This document shows positions 3,471 through 18,866 of a DNA stretch of 39,297 bases, piece by piece (the stretch's first letter is position 1; every line of letters begins with the position of its first letter). The translations under genes were made by a program, and so were the position numbers. Location of the stretch: positions 1-39,297 of the IMG/VR virus record IMGVR_UViG_3300026501_000001; one strand, given 5' to 3'. The notes below the pieces were generated by a model. It was given only the letters and a program-made list of their open reading frames with translations, was not told where the DNA came from and searched no databases. Source of the stretch: a virus.

Positions 3471-3798
3471 TGTTTAAACCTCCCTTTAAATCATAACCTA
3501 AATTTTTTTTATCAATTATTGCACAAATTTGAGCTAATTCTAAAAGTGTATATTTAGAATACCGTCTAATATAAATTAAACAATCTGTTATACCATTTTC
3601 ATTATTTTGTCTTTTAGCTTTTTCTAATAATTCAACATAAATTTCAATCTTTTTAATTTCTTCTTTTACTTCCTGTAGTTCTTCGTAAAAAGCACCCATA
3701 AACTCGTCACTATTTTTAAAAAATTTACCGTGTTTATCAATAGCCCTATCAAACTCAAAACCAATTATTTCTTCACATAGTTTAATATTATCATTCAT
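3463..3798 (-). CDS. Possible MazG-like helical protein, 111 aa
   Basis: An all-helical protein with spaced acidic residues: FYEELQEVKEEIKKIEI near residue 38 and LLELAQICAIIDK near residue 84. These resemble the metal-binding helices of MazG-type nucleotide pyrophosphohydrolases, which break down (d)NTPs. The typical EExxD second motif is not clear, so this is tentative. Its TAG stop lies inside the start of the next gene, which confirms TAG as a real stop here. Confidence 0.55.
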   Translation of the reverse strand: MNDNIKLCEEIIGFEFDRAIDKHGKFFKNSDEFMGAFYEELQEVKEEIKKIEIYVELLEKAKRQNNENGITDCLIYIRRYSKYTLLELAQICAIIDKKNLGYDLKGGLNND

Positions 3799-7459: not shown

Positions 7460-8167
7460 TTATTTATTTGAGTAATATAATTTTTGAATTAAACCAGACC
7501 AATTTAAACTAGGAAATGTTTTCATATGTTTTATCCAAATATCTGCATAATCACTTTCTTTTTTAATAATTTCCTGCCATGTTAACATTTTCTCATTATC
7601 AGGTAAATCAAATTTTAAGTTAAAATATTTAAAAATAGCTTTTACCGTGGCTATTGCAAAAAGGTCTATATTAGCTTTATAAAATTTTACGTCATTCTCA
7701 TTAGTATGATAAAAATGTTCCATAAGACAAGCCACGGCATTTGTATTACTTAATTCATAAAGACCACTACTATATAAGACACTATCTGGTCGACTTCCTC
7801 TATCTGTTGTTGGTGTTACCGCTGATATAAAATCATACCATATATCAGATATTTTTTTACCGTTACCATTTTTATTCAAATGACTATAATAACTTTCACA
7901 ACCTCTTACGGTCTGTGTACCTGCATTTGAATGATTAGCTAAATGTAAAATTACTTTATTTTTATTACTATCTTGTACGATTTCAGATAATGTCATATTT
8001 TTATCTTTATTTTTAAATATTACAAAATCACAATTGATATCAGCTAAATCAATATAATATTCAATCCGGTCTCTTAGTTTAAACATGTTATCCTCTTCCG
8101 TACCATAACCAGCTACACCTATATTTTTTTCTTGGGTACTTGCTGATAAATAAATTTTTATAGACAT
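7460..8167 (-). CDS. N-acetylmuramoyl-L-alanine amidase (endolysin)
   Basis: An Amidase_3-type catalytic domain fills most of the 235 residues. KIYLSASTQEKN is the first strand, VILHLANHSNAG carries the catalytic/metal region, and CLMEHFYHTNENDVKF carries the conserved Glu. It cuts the bond between muramic acid and L-Ala in peptidoglycan. No cell-wall-binding repeats are visible; only ~40 residues follow the catalytic domain, so it is a short lysin. It follows the holin gene by 11 bases and GGAGGG precedes its ATG. A first-position His usual in this family (H of the SxGH type) is not obvious. Confidence 0.85.
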   Translation of the reverse strand: MSIKIYLSASTQEKNIGVAGYGTEEDNMFKLRDRIEYYIDLADINCDFVIFKNKDKNMTLSEIVQDSNKNKVILHLANHSNAGTQTVRGCESYYSHLNKNGNGKKISDIWYDFISAVTPTTDRGSRPDSVLYSSGLYELSNTNAVACLMEHFYHTNENDVKFYKANIDLFAIATVKAIFKYFNLKFDLPDNEKMLTWQEIIKKESDYADIWIKHMKTFPSLNWSGLIQKLYYSNK

Positions 8168-8178
8168 TTATTTCCCTC

Positions 8179-8460
8179 CTATTTCCCTACTATCATTTCA
8201 ACTATACCTTTAACAATTATTAAACCACCTGTCACAATAGAACCTATCAAGCCTACAAACTTATAATCAATCTCTTTTTTTTTAGTTTCCAATATTACCG
8301 GGCAATTTTCAGTATTTCTTTTACATTCTTCTTTAGTAACCATATTTTCTTCGATATACATTAATTTTGATTCAATCATATTAAATCTATTAGTTATGTC
8401 TGTTTTAAGGTCCTTAATATTATCAATTATTAAGTCTAAAAAACGATTATCTGCATCCAT
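8179..8460 (-). CDS. Holin, XhlA/BhlA-like
   Basis: 93 residues. The first ~65 are a charged coiled coil (FLDLIIDNIKDLKTDITNRF onward, with a short Cys-containing part), and the last ~22 form one membrane span (FVGLIGSIVTGGLIIVKGIV). This N-terminal helix plus C-terminal span matches XhlA/BhlA-type holins. It opens the membrane to let the amidase reach the wall. GGGAGG precedes the ATG. The large hairpin at 8484-8518 is in its leader. Confidence 0.82.
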   Translation of the reverse strand: MDADNRFLDLIIDNIKDLKTDITNRFNMIESKLMYIEENMVTKEECKRNTENCPVILETKKKEIDYKFVGLIGSIVTGGLIIVKGIVEMIVGK

Positions 8461-8483: not shown

Positions 8484-8518
8484 AATGGTATACCTATATT
8501 ATAACAAGGTATACCATT
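8484..8518 (-). promoter_or_regulatory. Perfect 12-base inverted repeat with TATAAT in its loop, before the holin gene
   Basis: Arms AATGGTATACCT and AGGTATACCATT are fully complementary, with an 11-base loop holding TATAAT on the minus strand (8503-8498). It could be an operator around a -10 box or an RNA hairpin in the lysis leader. The -35 match is weak, so any promoter here would need an activator. Confidence 0.6.
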
Positions 8519-8593
8519 CTAAGGAAACTATTAAAATGAAAAACTACTCTATAGCAAAATATCAATGTAGTATTGATAGAAACAATCTAAAAT

Positions 8594-8605: not shown

Positions 8606-8676
8606 TGCAAAATATTGTGTATTTTTATAATTAAAGCTGACTATTAAATACATGTTAATATAATTTTGCTTTATTC

Positions 8677-8714
8677 CTAGACTCAAACTAGCAGGGTTAG
8701 CAACCTGGTGTTTG
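8677..8714 (-). ncRNA. tRNA-Ser(GCU)-like fragment
   Basis: On the minus strand a hairpin CAGG/CCTG encloses TTGCTAA, which looks like a serine tRNA anticodon loop with GCT as anticodon. It is followed by CTAG-TTTGAGT-CTAG, a 4-base-pair T-arm look-alike. No acceptor stem could be found, and an alternative outer helix CAAAC/GTTTG competes with the T-arm. It may be a decayed tRNA or part of a larger structured RNA. It starts two to three bases after tRNA-like element B. Confidence 0.35.
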
Positions 8715-8716
8715 TA

Positions 8717-8771
8717 GTACGACGCTAAGAATCGAACTTAGTATTCATGACATAGTAACCATACCGTCATT
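8717..8771 (-). tRNA. D-arm-less tRNA-like element B, anticodon CAT
   Basis: 55 bases. Acceptor AATGACG/CGTCGTA pairs at six of seven positions (one A-A, one G-U). The T-arm is perfect: CTAAG-TTCGATT-CTTAG. Between them are only 23 bases: GTATGGTTAC in place of the D-arm, then a short stem TAT/ATA around GTCATGA, whose middle is CAT with T at position 33. There is no variable loop and no encoded CCA. Ordinary tRNAs have about 42 bases here. Its linker matches that of element A closely (GTATGGTWAC), so the short form is shared and not random loss. Confidence 0.5.
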
Positions 8772-8842
8772 ACCTAATACATGTATATTTAATATTTTTT
8801 TAATGTCACTTCCATAACCTAAGGAAAATATTAAAACCCCTA

Positions 8843-8899
8843 TTATAACGTTTGGACTTGAACCAAATATCCTCGAAAGATAGTTACCATACCGTTATA
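8843..8899 (-). tRNA. D-arm-less tRNA-like element A, anticodon TCG
   Basis: 57 bases. The acceptor stem is perfect (TATAACG/CGTTATA), as is the T-arm (TTTGG-TTCAAGT-CCAAA). The 25 bases between hold GTATGGTAAC and then TATC-TTTCGAG-GATA, a 4-base-pair anticodon-like arm with loop TTTCGAG (T33, anticodon TCG, A37), which would read CGA for Arg. The GG in the linker could pair with the T-loop as D-loop GG does. The discriminator would be A; CCA is not encoded. The shape recalls D-arm-less animal mitochondrial tRNA-Ser. Confidence 0.55.
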
Positions 8900-8904
8900 A
8901 CTGT

Positions 8905-8990
8905 GTAATTTTAAGTTTAATGTCCATAAAAATTACTAAAAATCTAGACTAACCATGTATAAATATACCAGATAGTAATATTGTTTATGG
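8905..8990 (-). ncRNA. Structured RNA with two competing folds
   Basis: On the minus strand CCATAAA (8990-8984) can pair with TTTATGG (8930-8924), and inside it ATTACTA (8979-8973) with TAGTAAT (8938-8932): two perfect 7-base helices. The bases of the last arm can instead form GTAATTTT/AAAATTAC (8936-8929 with 8912-8905). The two folds exclude one another, as in switch-type leaders. It lies just before element A. Confidence 0.4.
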
Positions 8991-9001: not shown

Positions 9002-9020
9002 ATAAGGAATTGCACCTTAT
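9002..9020 (-). ncRNA. T-arm-like hairpin
   Basis: Minus strand ATAAGG-TGCAATT-CCTTAT: a 6-base-pair stem with a 7-base loop that differs from a normal T-loop (TTCAATT) at one base. No matching acceptor stem was found. It may be a remnant of another tRNA-like gene. The remaining non-coding stretch 9021-9260 has a CCGTG/CACGG hairpin (9119-9133) and a CGTAAAGC/GCTTTATG long-range pairing but no gene I can support. Confidence 0.35.
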
Positions 9021-9264: not shown

Positions 9265-9293
9265 ATTATAACATATGTCGATTTTAAAGGCAA
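9265..9293 (-). promoter_or_regulatory. Promoter of the structured RNA region
   Basis: Minus strand TTGCCT (9293-9288), a 17-base spacer, perfect TATAAT (9270-9265). No open reading frame follows for almost 800 bases, so the transcript starts as non-coding RNA and probably runs on through holin and amidase to the terminator at 7408-7440. Confidence 0.75.
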
Positions 9294-9337: not shown

Positions 9338-9694
9338 TTATTTTGTACTCAAATTATTCACATTTAAATCAATATTATTAATTTTGATAGGAATATCAAC
9401 ACCATTATGTTTAATTTCATTAGATTTTGTAATATTTTTAAACTCTGGTTCTTTAACAATTAATTCACTACTTAATCTATTAAATTGTATTTGTGTCATT
9501 ATTCCAATTTTATTTGTTTTACAATATTCTTGAAATATTTTATAAAAATCATTTAATGATTGAGGTTTATTAGCTGTTTTAGTATAACAATCAATAATCA
9601 CAGGTATTTTATTTTTTAATCTTTTTCTAATAATATGTTCGGCCTCAATCAATTGATCCTCTGGTATTTGATCTATAATTTTTTCAATATCCAT
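9338..9694 (-). CDS. Hypothetical protein with winged-helix-like core, 118 aa
   Basis: The middle (SLNDFYKIFQEYCKTNKIG, then MTQIQFNRLSSEL) resembles the small winged-helix domain often found at the end of D5-type primase-helicases (FxxFxxWCxxNG...sxxxFxxxL). Here it stands alone. I prefer the ATG at 9694 because an ATG four codons earlier lies right on the ribosome site (AAAGGG). It is divergent from the plus-strand gene at 9779 and shares a symmetric promoter region with it. Function unknown. Confidence 0.6.
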   Translation of the reverse strand: MDIEKIIDQIPEDQLIEAEHIIRKRLKNKIPVIIDCYTKTANKPQSLNDFYKIFQEYCKTNKIGIMTQIQFNRLSSELIVKEPEFKNITKSNEIKHNGVDIPIKINNIDLNVNNLSTK

Positions 9695-10132: not shown

Positions 10133-10147
10133 CCAATTAAATAAATT

Positions 10148-10170
10148 AAGGACCTTTATAGGTCCTTTTT
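10148..10170 (+). terminator. Rho-independent terminator
   Basis: AAGGACC / GGTCCTT with a 6-base loop followed by TTT, 16 bases after the plus-strand gene. Confidence 0.8.
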
Positions 10171-10227
10171 AAATTAACTCTAAATAGTATACATTTGTTT
10201 AGTTAGTGTTATTTACGGAAACTTTCG

Positions 10228-10476
10228 GGTAGTTCTGGTAGTCGTCTGGGGAAAAGAACTTCAACCTCCGCTTAGAGGGGAGAGGCTTACGGGAGTTCGG
10301 GGGAGGATTGAAAGAAACATATAAATATACATTTTTTATTTGTACATATGTACATAATTATGTATAAATAAAAAATTCTTATAAAGTGATTTAATTTACT
10401 ACCAGAACTATCCGTAAACCTCTACGCTCTAAACGGAGGTTGAAGTTTTTTTCCCCAGACGACTACCAGAACTACC
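10228..10476. repeat. Imperfect palindrome of about 250 bases, GC-rich arms
   Basis: GGTAGTTCTGGTAGTCGTCT near 10228 is matched by its reverse complement ending at 10476. The match runs on for about 75 bases with a few changes and, after a diverged stretch, into the centre, where two 18-base arms (10331-10348 and 10359-10376) differ at one base. The motif AGTTCTGGTAGT occurs three times in all. The arms are much richer in GC than the genome. No reading frame was seen. It could be a replication origin, a MITE-like insertion or a large RNA hairpin. Confidence 0.75.
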
Positions 10477-10628
10477 AGATTTTGAAACATAAATGTAATA
10501 GAAAATGAAAAAATAAAACTTGACTTTTATTAAAATAAGTGGATAACTTTTAATTTACATTTTTTAGGAGGATTTATAGAAATTACTTAGATATTTTAAA
10601 TAATGTAGATACGTTACTTATCATAAAA

Positions 10629-10648
10629 AAAAAGCCCTAATGGACTTT
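10629..10648 (-). terminator. Rho-independent terminator
   Basis: On the minus strand AAAGTCC-ATTA-GGGCTTT (one G-U pair) runs into nine T. It lies after the antirepressor stop. Confidence 0.72.
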
Positions 10649-10654
10649 TTTAAA

Positions 10655-12262: not shown

Positions 12263-12613
12263 TTATTCATTTTTTTTAGTAACTATATCTATAACTTTTT
12301 TAACTGATTTCAACGGTGAAGTTTCATTTAATCCGTTATTATTATCGTCACCATTAATTGTATCAACAAAAAATATATTAGGCTGTTGTTCCTGTAATTG
12401 TTTTTCATAATTAGGGTCTAAAATATTTGGATAATATTTTGAAGTATCATATCTGTCATACCACATTTCACGACTATTACACATAACATTGAAATTTTGA
12501 ATACAGTTACAAATATATTCAGTTAATATAAAATCAGGTGTATTACTTCCATTTTCAATAGAATATTCGTTTAATAATTTCTGTAAATCTTTTTTAAAAT
12601 CATTTAAATTCAT
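12263..12613 (-). CDS. NTPDFIL-type phage protein with pectate-lyase-type cap motif, 116 aa
   Basis: The N-terminal ~50 residues (ENGSNTPDFILTEYICNCIQ, then NSREMWYD) match a small protein type common in phages whose function I cannot name. The C-terminal part has IFFVDTINGDDNNNGLNETS, the same motif as the start of the beta-helix protein at 32335 (VFFVDPINGDDNNDGT). In beta-helix proteins this caps the helix. Here it ends the protein, so a module seems to have been copied or cut. The stretch 12160-12262 has no gene, only a weak CTTAGCT/AGCTAAG inverted repeat. Confidence 0.65.
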   Translation of the reverse strand: MNLNDFKKDLQKLLNEYSIENGSNTPDFILTEYICNCIQNFNVMCNSREMWYDRYDTSKYYPNILDPNYEKQLQEQQPNIFFVDTINGDDNNNGLNETSPLKSVKKVIDIVTKKNE

Positions 12614-12615
12614 AA

Positions 12616-12897
12616 TTATTTATTCCCTTCTTTTATTATTTTGCCATTTTTTAATATATATCCAGATTTACCACTATTTGTAAAATCATAAATCTTTTTT
12701 GCTTTAATATATACTTCACTAGTAATACCTAAAAGTATACATATTTCTTTTAAAGCACTTACTTTATCTAATAAAAAACTAGACATGTCTTGGTTCTTAT
12801 CTTCATAATAAAATTTATCTGCTTTTTGTTGTAATTCTGCTATTTTTTCAGCAAAAACCTTTATAACATATTCACTACACTTATTACATAAGTTCAC
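12616..12897 (-). CDS. Hypothetical helical protein, 93 aa
   Basis: Starts at GTG ten bases after AAAGG. MNLCNKCSEYVIKVFAEKIA begins with a Cys pair and leads into a coiled-coil-like helix; the end has GYILKNGKIIKEGNK. Not recognised. The first bases repeat (GTGAACTT twice), which may reflect slippage at the start. Confidence 0.5.
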   Translation of the reverse strand: MNLCNKCSEYVIKVFAEKIAELQQKADKFYYEDKNQDMSSFLLDKVSALKEICILLGITSEVYIKAKKIYDFTNSGKSGYILKNGKIIKEGNK

Positions 12898-16235: not shown

Positions 16236-18866
16236 ATGTTAGATAATTTAAGATATTTAGTAATAGATACTGAAACATTAGAAGATTATTTCAGCTTACA
16301 GTATAAAAATGAAAAAGGTATAAGTAAAGTTTATGAATGTTATAATGATAACGATATTCATAAACTTTATGCTCTATTAACTAGAGTAAAAAGACCTATG
16401 TATTGTTATAGTATTGATTATGATAAAATTATGATAAACGCTTTATGCAAGTTCGTAGAGAGTAAAACAATTAATATTTGTTATCATTTAAGACAAGTTT
16501 CAAATTATATAATAAATCATAAAATAGATTATTTCAGATTAAATAAATTATTTTGGACCGACTGTTATTTTAAAATTAAAGAATCAGATATTGATTTATC
16601 ACAAAAGGAAATATGGGATCAATCAATTTTAAAATGTAAACAATTAAATCCTAATCAAAAAACTAGAGAATTTATTGATTTATATCAAAGAATTTTAGGA
16701 AAAAGTAAAGTATTTAAATCCTTAATTATAAACAGTATACCTAAAATTAATTTTTACTATACTGTAAAAAATGATAAATCGTTGCAAATGACAATCTCAT
16801 TAAAAAAACTACAGCTTATTTATGAAGGATATAATATAAAATTTGATTTTAATAAATATACAAAAATAGCAGATATAAAAAAAGACGGTTTGTATGATAC
16901 TTTTATAGAATATTCGTTAAATGACGTTAATTTTTTAGATACAATATTCAAAGATAAACCATTAAAAGATATTACAAAAAGAATTTATGCAGTACAAGCA
17001 GTTAAACAAATAAATCCTGATATTGAAATATCAGACATTGAAATTTATTCTGAAAATGATACAGCTTTAATTACTAAATTACTTAGTATTGATAAACCAA
17101 ACAAAGTGTTTACTGTAGATTATACTAAACATATTAAAACAAACTATAAACAATTTAATGATTTTGTTAAATTTGTTTCAGAAAATAATAATTTAATATC
17201 TAAAGACAGAGAATTAAAAGAAACTTATTGTAGTAAATTTAAAAAAGAATATATTACGGACGATTATACCATAGTTAATGATAATGTTGATTTACAAATA
17301 AATAGTTTTGATACTTTGATAATTAATAATACTAGTATTAAATTTGGTCTTGGTGGTGTTCATGGTGCAATACCGTCTTATATTAGTGAAAATCTTTTAC
17401 ATTTAGATTATACTTCACAATATCCTAGTATAATTTTACAATATAAAGAATTATTTAAAAATATAATAAATGTTGATTTATATGAAGCTGTATATAATAT
17501 GAGAATAGAATCTAAACCAAAATTAAAATTAATAGAAAACGAAAAAGGTATTGATTCACCTGAATATAAGGAATTATTATTAATAGTTGAAGGTTTAAAA
17601 CTAATTTTAAACACTGCTTATGGTTTGATTAATAGTAATTTTGAATTACCAATTAGTTTTAAACCCTTAGGACGTTTTATTTGTTTAAAAGGTCAATCCT
17701 TACTTTTAAACTTAGCTTATAAGTTAATTAAATATAATAATGATATATCCTTAGTTAATGTAAATACAGACGGTATTATTTTAAAATTACCTGAGAACTG
17801 TAATATTGACCAATTAATTAAAGAAGATATCGACGGTTATTTTGTACTAGGTGTGGATAAAATTAAAAAAATAATTCAGCGTGACGTAAATAGCTATTTA
17901 AAAATTATGGAAAATGAATCATTAAAAACAAAAGGGGCTTTTAATTTAAAAATCAAACAACATATTAATAAAAATGAGCAATTAAGTGTTTTATTACAAA
18001 ATGCAATTAGATTAATTAATAATCAAAGTGTACAAATTTTACCAGTGTATTTTGATATTAAGTGGATTAATAAAGAAGAAAAGGCATATTATTTAACAAA
18101 TAGTATTAATGGTAGTATTGCAATTAAAAATACTGTAAAACCACAAATACTTAGTATTGATAATGAAATGTTTTATTTTACGGATAACAAGGACCTTGCC
18201 GATTTATCATTATATCAAAAATATTCTAGAATAATAATGGATAGAATACTTACATTTTCAATGACTAACACTGAAAAAAATTTACCTTTTATTGAAAATA
18301 CTTTGATTGAAGATACTGAAGAAAATAATAAATCTAAAAAAACTTTAAAATTAAAATTAACTAAATTATTTAATTTAACTGATAAAAACAAAAATTTATT
18401 AGGTTTTGTAGGTTTTAAAGGTGATACTAAAACTAATTCATATATTAACGGTAAACCAATAAAACCATTGATACATTACACAATGACTAAAATTCAAAAT
18501 TCTACTTATTGTAAAGGTTTTAGTTTAACAAGTGGTGATAAGTTTTTAATTATTGACGTTGATATTTTTGATAAACATACCAATAAACCTAAAATTGGTT
18601 TTCAAATATGCAATTTATTAATAAATAAATTAAAGGAACAAAATACATTTGAATGTTGGAATGATAAAACAATAAGAACCAATAGAAAATTTATATTTAA
18701 ATGTAATGATAAGATTTTAATAAAATCACCTTATAATAAATATATTGAAATTTTAACACAAAAGGCCACTATTTTAACTTTAGACGAAGTAAATATAAAA
18801 TATGATTGTAATTGGATAGAACCCATAGAATTTAATTTAAATGAATTTAAAGAGTATATAAGCTAA
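16236..18866 (+). CDS. Family B DNA polymerase with C-terminal PrimPol-like domain
   Basis: 876 residues. The exonuclease has YLVIDTETLEDYF near residue 10 and YSLNDVNFLDTIF near 230. Polymerase motif A is LDYTSQYPSI (~390), motif B KLILNTAYG (~455), motif C VNTDGIIL (~510); the usual DTDS has become NTDG, but the second Asp remains. The gap of ~65 residues between A and B leaves no room for the TPR1 insertion of protein-primed enzymes. Residues ~740-840 (CKGFSLTSGDKFLIIDVDIF, then IRTNRKFIFKC, then YIEILTQKATIL) follow the PrimPol order of motifs, with the usual His replaced by Lys. GGAGG precedes the ATG. Confidence 0.85.
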   Translation: MLDNLRYLVIDTETLEDYFSLQYKNEKGISKVYECYNDNDIHKLYALLTRVKRPMYCYSIDYDKIMINALCKFVESKTINICYHLRQVSNYIINHKIDYFRLNKLFWTDCYFKIKESDIDLSQKEIWDQSILKCKQLNPNQKTREFIDLYQRILGKSKVFKSLIINSIPKINFYYTVKNDKSLQMTISLKKLQLIYEGYNIKFDFNKYTKIADIKKDGLYDTFIEYSLNDVNFLDTIFKDKPLKDITKRIYAVQAVKQINPDIEISDIEIYSENDTALITKLLSIDKPNKVFTVDYTKHIKTNYKQFNDFVKFVSENNNLISKDRELKETYCSKFKKEYITDDYTIVNDNVDLQINSFDTLIINNTSIKFGLGGVHGAIPSYISENLLHLDYTSQYPSIILQYKELFKNIINVDLYEAVYNMRIESKPKLKLIENEKGIDSPEYKELLLIVEGLKLILNTAYGLINSNFELPISFKPLGRFICLKGQSLLLNLAYKLIKYNNDISLVNVNTDGIILKLPENCNIDQLIKEDIDGYFVLGVDKIKKIIQRDVNSYLKIMENESLKTKGAFNLKIKQHINKNEQLSVLLQNAIRLINNQSVQILPVYFDIKWINKEEKAYYLTNSINGSIAIKNTVKPQILSIDNEMFYFTDNKDLADLSLYQKYSRIIMDRILTFSMTNTEKNLPFIENTLIEDTEENNKSKKTLKLKLTKLFNLTDKNKNLLGFVGFKGDTKTNSYINGKPIKPLIHYTMTKIQNSTYCKGFSLTSGDKFLIIDVDIFDKHTNKPKIGFQICNLLINKLKEQNTFECWNDKTIRTNRKFIFKCNDKILIKSPYNKYIEILTQKATILTLDEVNIKYDCNWIEPIEFNLNEFKEYIS

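Follow-up and report, generated by a model that had tools for sequence, protein, structure and literature searches.

The window, i.e. the whole stretch of DNA analysed here, is a 39,297-nt (39.3-kb) viral record with a siphovirus-type gene set comprising terminase, portal, capsid, tape measure, endolysin and antirepressor. On its minus strand, the endolysin gene is preceded by a 93-aa ORF, holin-like by position only, for which neither PHROGs nor Pfam gave a match, and before the latter lies an 877-nt gap without convincing gene, running from an ORF end at 9338 to the 93-aa ORF start at 8460. This gap harbours two compact tRNA-like elements, A and B, arranged in tandem in the sense of the lysis genes; the 93-aa ORF starts 382 nt past the 3' end of A and 256 nt past that of B, and no ORF of at least 20 aa overlaps A or B on either strand. 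A candidate promoter at the far end of the gap would yield a leader of ~800 nt containing both elements, the promoter-like sites of the region being not above background (15 vs. 13.9 +/- 3.9 expected from shuffles). The inverted repeat I4 could perhaps be an operator or a leader hairpin. The coordinates of all these features are gathered in Table 1.

Table 1. Features at and around the two compact tRNA-like elements.
Feature	Position	Strand	Basis or remark
Endolysin, N-acetylmuramoyl-L-alanine amidase (Amidase_3)	7460..8167	-	PHROG 435 endolysin E 1.6e-26; Pfam PF01520 E 1e-14
93-aa ORF	8179..8460	-	holin-like by position only; just upstream of endolysin gene
Inverted repeat I4, perfect 12 bp, 11-nt spacer	8484..8518	.	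immediately before the next gene's ribosome-binding site
Degenerate ~128-nt tandem duplication bearing A and B	8647..8929	-	direct repeats D1, D2, D4
Element B, compact tRNA-like, 55 nt	8717..8771	-	sequence read; descriptor scan
B, acceptor 5' strand, AATGACG	8765-8771	-	
B, linker, GTATGGTTAC	8755-8764	-	
B, hairpin, TAT-GTCATGA-ATA	8742-8754	-	
B, T-arm, CTAAG-TTCGATT-CTTAG	8725-8741	-	
B, acceptor 3' strand, CGTCGTA	8718-8724	-	
B, discriminator-like C	8717	-	
Element A, compact tRNA-like, 57 nt	8843..8899	-	sequence read; descriptor scan with simulation control
A, acceptor 5' strand, TATAACG	8893-8899	-	
A, linker, GTATGGTAAC	8883-8892	-	
A, hairpin, TATC-TTTCGAG-GATA	8868-8882	-	
A, T-arm, TTTGG-TTCAAGT-CCAAA	8851-8867	-	
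A, acceptor 3' strand, CGTTATA	8844-8850	-	
A, discriminator-like A	8843	-	
Candidate promoter, TTGCCT + 17 nt + TATAAT, TG before second hexamer	9265..9293	-	promoter-pattern sites

Besides these features, an 18-nt direct repeat (94%) links positions 8519-8536, ~60 nt before the 93-aa ORF, and 8819-8836, 6 nt past the 3' end of A. Two T-arm-like hairpins of the leader on the minus strand, TAAGG-TGCAATT-CCTTA at 9003-9019 and CTAG-TTTGAGT-CTAG at 8677-8691, lack an acceptor strand that would match and were left uncounted; the TGCAA loop type of the former is also found in elements of crAss-like phages (cr10, cr7). Elsewhere in this A/T-rich genome, a second long non-coding gap (10133-10654), with a raised G+C content (up to 0.335), adjoins a strand switch.

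An earlier note on this DNA had placed two short tRNA-like genes in the gap, and its coordinates, sequences, acceptors and T-arms for both hold good on sequence reading and strict scanning. The acceptor helix is fully paired in A (7/7) and pairs at 6/7 positions in B, with an A1:A mismatch and one G-U pair, and both elements have a complete T-stem (5/5) closed by a normal T-loop (TTCRANY). A common linker, GTATGGTWAC, stands in place of tRNA positions 8-26, the variable region is 0 nt long, and a 7-base anticodon-like loop with T33, exposing the triplet TCG in A (followed by A37) and CAT in B, is borne by a stem of 4 bp in A and of 3 A-U bp in B. In an alternative register, the anticodon-like hairpin of A has 5 bp and a 5-base loop. 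The CCA end is encoded in neither element. Regarding the D-arm, which the same note considered to be lacking, it is indeed reduced to the 10-nt linker, but the latter may still form a mini-arm of 2-3 bp with a UGGU loop; all 3 bp (GTA-TGGT-TAC) can form in the B linker and in an element of another phage contig, designated L118, and 2/3 pairs in the linkers of A and of a further element, L219, the third being A-A. The GG of the linker could act at the T-loop as G18-G19 do.

As free single strands, A has a minimum free energy (MFE) of -10.2 kcal/mol vs. -9.1 to -9.3 kcal/mol for the tRNA-like fold, and B of -9.4 vs. about -6.5 kcal/mol, the competing fold of the latter being about 3 kcal/mol better; the MFE z-scores of both are unremarkable. 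An MFE fold other than the tRNA-like one is not unusual among A/U-rich tRNAs but calls for caution for B.

When the window was scanned under strict criteria (T-stem 5/5, TTCRANY loop, at most one acceptor mismatch, length of 48-66 nt), A and B were the only matches. In 300 windows simulated with an order-2 Markov model, 0.48 matches per window were obtained, 0.07 with a perfect acceptor, and a pair sharing the linker at 9/10 bases appeared in 0/300. A and B are confirmed as real compact tRNA-like elements, above chance. Standard detectors do not retrieve them: in bacterial mode ARAGORN called neither element and no tRNA anywhere in the record, and in its -mt, -mtx and -mtd modes it made no call at A or B and 5-9 scattered calls elsewhere in the window, which are probably false positives. 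Rfam, at gathering and permissive thresholds, gave no match at A or B, including to RF00005 tRNA and to tmRNA, and no tag reading frame accompanies them; at a permissive E-value, weak matches to unrelated families only were obtained and set aside. Compared with defined classes of tRNA-like molecules, A and B have neither the 5-bp anticodon stem nor the variable region of at least 3 nt of decoding tRNAs, share an intact acceptor and T-arm without D-arm with the D-armless mitochondrial type (though the B linker can form a mini-arm), and possess the 7-bp acceptor, 5-bp T-stem and canonical T-loop of an RNase P minihelix (B with one acceptor mismatch). With respect to tRNA-type transcript punctuation, they are intergenic and on the strand of the next ORF, 382 and 256 nt upstream of it, vs. 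17-56 nt for the elements of crAss-like phages.

Both elements are embedded in a degenerate tandem duplication, the repeat pairs of which (8752/8880, 8647/8776 and, reaching further, 8913/9040) are spaced by 127-129 nt, with repeat D1 spanning the 5' halves of A and B. A and B are therefore paralogues, i.e. diverged copies issued from a tandem duplication, and the compact form is older than the latter. The shared linker, which had been taken as the sign of a designed short form, is explained by the ~128-nt duplication and brings no independent evidence of design, since A and B descend from one duplicated unit. What has changed since copying is more informative. In the T-stem, 3/5 pairs have changed, every one on both sides, and the T-loops are still canonical; in the acceptor, a single pair has changed on both sides, another has turned into G-U and a third is broken. 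Four two-sided pair changes between A and B, vs. 2.0 in shuffles, are suggestive of helices kept by compensatory change after the duplication, short of proof since only two sequences are compared and 31/500 shuffles reach the observed level.

Two scans of IMG/VR with linker and T-loop patterns provided two further compact-fold matches. L118 (positions 1750-1804 of a 60-kb contig with 50% GC) combines an 8-bp acceptor, the linker GTATGGTTAC, a 3-bp mini-hairpin and a 6-bp T-stem, and its MFE fold (-22.2) is a complete miniature cloverleaf; L219 (12671-12730) is a compact fold in a 99.6-kb crAss-like contig. Both are intergenic and sense to the next gene, in contigs that are unrelated. Their linker is no independent evidence, as it was in the query, and what is independent of the query is a perfect 7-8-bp acceptor in register. 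More generally, a perfect acceptor with a T-arm within 44-69 nt was found in 8 elements over 3.3 Mb of phage DNA vs. 0-2 per simulation (n=5), this set being a biased phage sample because most loci came from pattern searches. Other pattern matches were discarded: L110 and L209 lie inside ordinary tRNAs, L200, L212 and L216 are seemingly tRNAs with inserts, and L198 and L217 have no acceptor. Of note, L200 (~1660-1770) and L216 (minus strand, around the match at 3491-3533), in two large-phage records, are tRNA-like with a similar insert of ~50 nt in the anticodon loop (GGGTWGGATTCYGTTCGATTCRGATGCRAGTATGGTAACCGTAAANCCGC), and both were missed by ARAGORN. The L219 record also contains a hatchet ribozyme and a permuted tmRNA, and directly upstream of its compact element, at 12586-12668, two consecutive hairpins have loops sharing TGTGG(G)ATGGATWAG.

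Regarding the leader itself, blastn against annotated phages returned A/T-rich chance matches only, no homologue was obtained via the 93-aa protein and the endolysin, and no relative via DNA polymerase and terminase scans or via a profile search of genome contigs with a capsid alignment. The model R1, built from A and B (self-scores of 80.1 bits for A and 71.7 bits for B), gave 0 matches in 21 viral records with capsid relatives; it also missed L118 and L219, so that a negative result obtained with it says little except about close copies. The exact pattern CGGTATGGTWACTAT occurred in IMG/VR in 53 stretches that were inspected by eye, with no tRNA-like context, and these were attributed to chance.

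The gene following the L219 element led to crAss-like relatives, in which the corresponding gap is occupied by an ordinary tRNA-Arg or tRNA-Leu, its 3' flank being similar to that of L219. Shortened elements of 42-65 nt, with the acceptor and T-arm kept and the anticodon arm often absent, are also present in crAss-like phages, and whole-record scans of seven of them revealed reduced elements in cr113_1 (17702-17758, D-arm kept, no anticodon arm), cr115_1 (60690-60748) and cr50_1 (48785-48849). In cr6_1 (L248, NC_055894), a 42-nt minihelix with neither D-arm nor anticodon arm (TAGCCTG-ATAGGAAATAT-TGTAG-TTCGATT-CTACA-CAGGCTA) lies 21 nt before the start codon of a primase ORF (locus position 17914) and is nearly a textbook minimal RNase P substrate. 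Among 327 ORFs of at least 150 aa in crAss-like phages, 10 are preceded by an element, be it canonical or reduced, whose end falls 17-56 nt ahead of the ATG, vs. 0 in the reverse-complement and 0 in the shuffled controls of these upstream segments. The earlier note knew of no comparable form in phages; such reduced elements are encountered in crAss-like phages as well as in the L118 and L219 contigs.

This arrangement is most regular at the DNA-polymerase ORF, where a tRNA or tRNA-like element of 42-89 nt ends ~17-27 nt upstream in most crAss phages checked, similar elements occurring upstream of the DNA-primase ORF; many of them are unannotated and ARAGORN-negative (L286 in cr113_1, L289-L300; NC_055896, NC_055898, NC_055894, NC_055893, MT774375, MT774382, others). 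In 12 further phages, of which cr109, cr60 and cr52 (3/12) are not independent of cr113 as they belong to the same genus, a strong element stands 18-26 nt before the polymerase start in 8 and a weaker one in 1, and no element of the acceptor/T-arm type was found at this site in the remaining 3, two of which (cr273 and cr7) have similar layouts with other loop sequences. The element is in some phages a canonical tRNA-Arg, -His or -Val, annotated by the depositors as tRNA-His or tRNA-Val in two of these 12, and in three others an anticodon-less form of 57-58 nt. For the anticodon-less form, cr113 and three others show six two-sided pair changes (0/500 shuffles), each of which is due either to the most divergent sequence or to a single substitution event. 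As position, acceptor and T-arm are kept and the anticodon, even its arm, is not, selection at such sites bears on the acceptor and T-arm rather than on decoding, and a processing mark appears as the simplest reading of the polymerase-site elements. This pattern may be more general and better supported than the result obtained in the window.

Other structured RNAs were noticed in these phages. Upstream of the primase ORF, L261 (cr10_1) and L258 (cr50_1) share the motif GTAAGCACAT...AAGCAGATGTGTGAAT in a longer element with tRNA-like ends, which resembles a distinct conserved structured RNA, perhaps of tmRNA type. In an intergenic gap where relatives carry a tRNA, another structured RNA is shared by L221/L227 (cr6_1 and a clone) and L224 (cr50_1); it contains GATAATG...ACTAAG...GGATGC..TATCGAG, has a closing helix of 7 bp and gave no match in Rfam.

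For A and B, the reading we prefer, tentatively and as something just short of probable, is that they are minimal tRNA mimics directing cleavage of the lysis transcript by RNase P and tRNA 3'-end enzymes. Among the three functions that the earlier note proposed, the comparative evidence favours a processing signal for this transcript. A and B would stand in tandem within the 5' leader of the lysis transcript, each folded element presenting a stacked acceptor/T-arm helix on whose T-loop the linker GG may dock; this helix would provide what bacterial RNase P requires for a cut on the 5' side, tRNA 3'-end enzymes would recognise the 3' side, and cleavage would release two RNAs of ~55-57 nt and leave a new 5' end on the lysis mRNA. 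The analysis establishes the sequence, anatomy and non-randomness of the elements, their sense-strand position before the lysis genes and a duplication followed by compensatory change; that the leader is transcribed and folds in vivo, that RNase P or RNase Z cleaves it and that expression of the lysis genes is affected is what we infer. The acceptor and T-arm are the best-kept parts of A and B, and RNase P is able to cleave model hairpins made of acceptor stem, T-stem and T-loop alone, its known substrates including the phage M3 and C4 RNAs (PMC11143913). On the other side, 382 and 256 nt separate the 3' ends of A and B from the next gene, vs. 17-56 nt in crAss-like phages, the tandem arrangement is unlike the crAss layout, B has an acceptor mismatch and a better competing fold, the candidate promoter is not above background, and the mechanism is drawn by analogy with unrelated phages, no homologue of the leader or of the 93-aa gene having been found in the searches above. 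In a broader and more speculative form, it is quite conceivable that unrelated phage lineages use stripped tRNA mimics, down to 42 nt, as cis-acting punctuation, of which A and B would be a tandem, D-arm-reduced version placed before lysis genes; the acceptor and T-arm would be kept, the D-arm or anticodon arm reduced or absent, and cuts by host enzymes would define the ends of phage mRNAs.

Alternatively, A and B could serve as decoys or sponges which, by mimicking tRNA ends or anticodon loops (TCG, CAT), absorb host anticodon nucleases, effectors cutting tRNA tails or other tRNA-targeting defences. Escape from tRNA-targeting defences is a known role of phage tRNAs (PMC10264068, PMC11555353), tRNA tails are cut by Cas12a3 (PMC12851939), and A and B each combine a complete acceptor end with a 7-base loop bearing T33. 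This is nonetheless unlikely, as the anticodon-like stems are just 3-4 A/T-rich bp, reduced elements elsewhere do without anticodon arm, and their place in the lysis leader implies that A and B are expressed late, a late moment for counter-defence. Quite unlikely too are trans-acting small RNAs, processed and stabilised by tRNA enzymes, that would regulate mRNAs or occupy tRNA-binding proteins; the long non-coding region of ~877 nt with its tandem duplication, the discrete ends expected of tRNA-like processing and the precedent of mammalian mascRNA and menRNA, processed into small tRNA-like RNAs (PMC9777231), would suit them, but no target or conserved single-stranded seed is known. An ordinary tRNA that lost its D-arm by deletion, was then duplicated and is now drifting would account for the mismatch and weak anticodon stem of B and for the likeness of the linker to the 3' half of a D-arm (GGTATGGTAAC in the tRNA-Gln of L110); such decay seems improbable given that the T-stem divergence is fully compensated, that T-loops are canonical in both copies and that no tRNA is left in the record.

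The earlier note also envisaged true tRNAs. Read in this way, A would be an Arg tRNA (TCG) and B a Met or Ile2 tRNA (CAT), both D-armless and decoding as in animal mitochondria. No use of such tRNAs by the EF-Tu, synthetases or ribosomes of bacteria is known. D-armless tRNAs are functional in animal mitochondria (PMC2797822) and T33 in a 7-base loop, plus A37 in A, would fit, but the 3-4-bp anticodon stems, the zero-length variable region, the unencoded CCA, the silence of the ARAGORN mitochondrial modes at A and B despite 5-9 other, probably false, calls, and the existence of anticodon-arm-free elements elsewhere make this very unlikely. Finally, a chance likeness in A/T-rich DNA, copied once by duplication, is hardly credible: a match with at most one acceptor mismatch is indeed expected in about every second window (0.48), the duplication explains the second copy and the MFE z-scores are unremarkable, but a perfect acceptor is expected just 0.07 times per window, compensatory change would be unexpected for a chance fold, and the combination of linker and fold recurs in L118 and L219.

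Phage tRNA genes are usually read as codon supply or defence evasion. Elements reduced to the tRNA portion seen by processing enzymes, among them anticodon-less versions at the very site where relatives carry ordinary tRNAs, suggest that some of these genes are kept as transcript-processing signals; if true, the annotation and counting of phage tRNAs would change, and the many unusual or unannotated tRNA-like genes of gut phages would find a reason. Open-access full texts yielded no description of phage tRNA-like elements devoid of the D-arm or the anticodon, most subscription papers being outside this scope.

Among known systems, the tRNA-like domain of tmRNA has, as A and B do, an acceptor and T-arm without D-stem, but A and B come with no tag-peptide frame, pseudoknots or Rfam tmRNA match. 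The D-armless animal mitochondrial tRNAs resemble them by a short linker in place of the D-arm, a retained T-arm and a size of 55-60 nt, but keep a functional anticodon stem and variable region together with adapted partners, which A and B do not. The mammalian mascRNA and menRNA are about 60 nt long, with a poor anticodon arm and a good acceptor and T-arm. Like the RNAs expected from A and B, mascRNA (from MALAT1) and menRNA (from NEAT1) are enzymatically released from a longer transcript (PMC9777231), but they are nuclear, formed at the 3' end of a long non-coding RNA and without sequence relation to A and B. In the polycistronic transcripts of mitochondria, tRNA or armless tRNA-like units located between genes on the sense strand are excised to define mRNA ends (PMC4394434); A and B differ in residing in a phage, in the 256-382 nt separating them from the next gene and in their anticodon arm, which in the phage units is reduced or lost, making these hardly usable as tRNAs. 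Also comparable are the minimal acceptor/T-arm substrates of RNase P, for which a coaxial acceptor and T-arm with its T-loop is sufficient for cleavage (PMC11143913), and phage substrates of the enzyme such as the M3 RNA and the antisense C4 RNA, which like A and B are phage-encoded and not decoding tRNAs; A and B, whose cleavage is predicted, differ in keeping a tRNA-type 7-bp acceptor, a D-like linker with GG and the T-loop, and in standing in tandem in a lysis leader. As phages are already known to provide RNase P substrates and mitochondria to punctuate transcripts with tRNAs, the reduced tRNA-like form in phages would be a variation on these themes.
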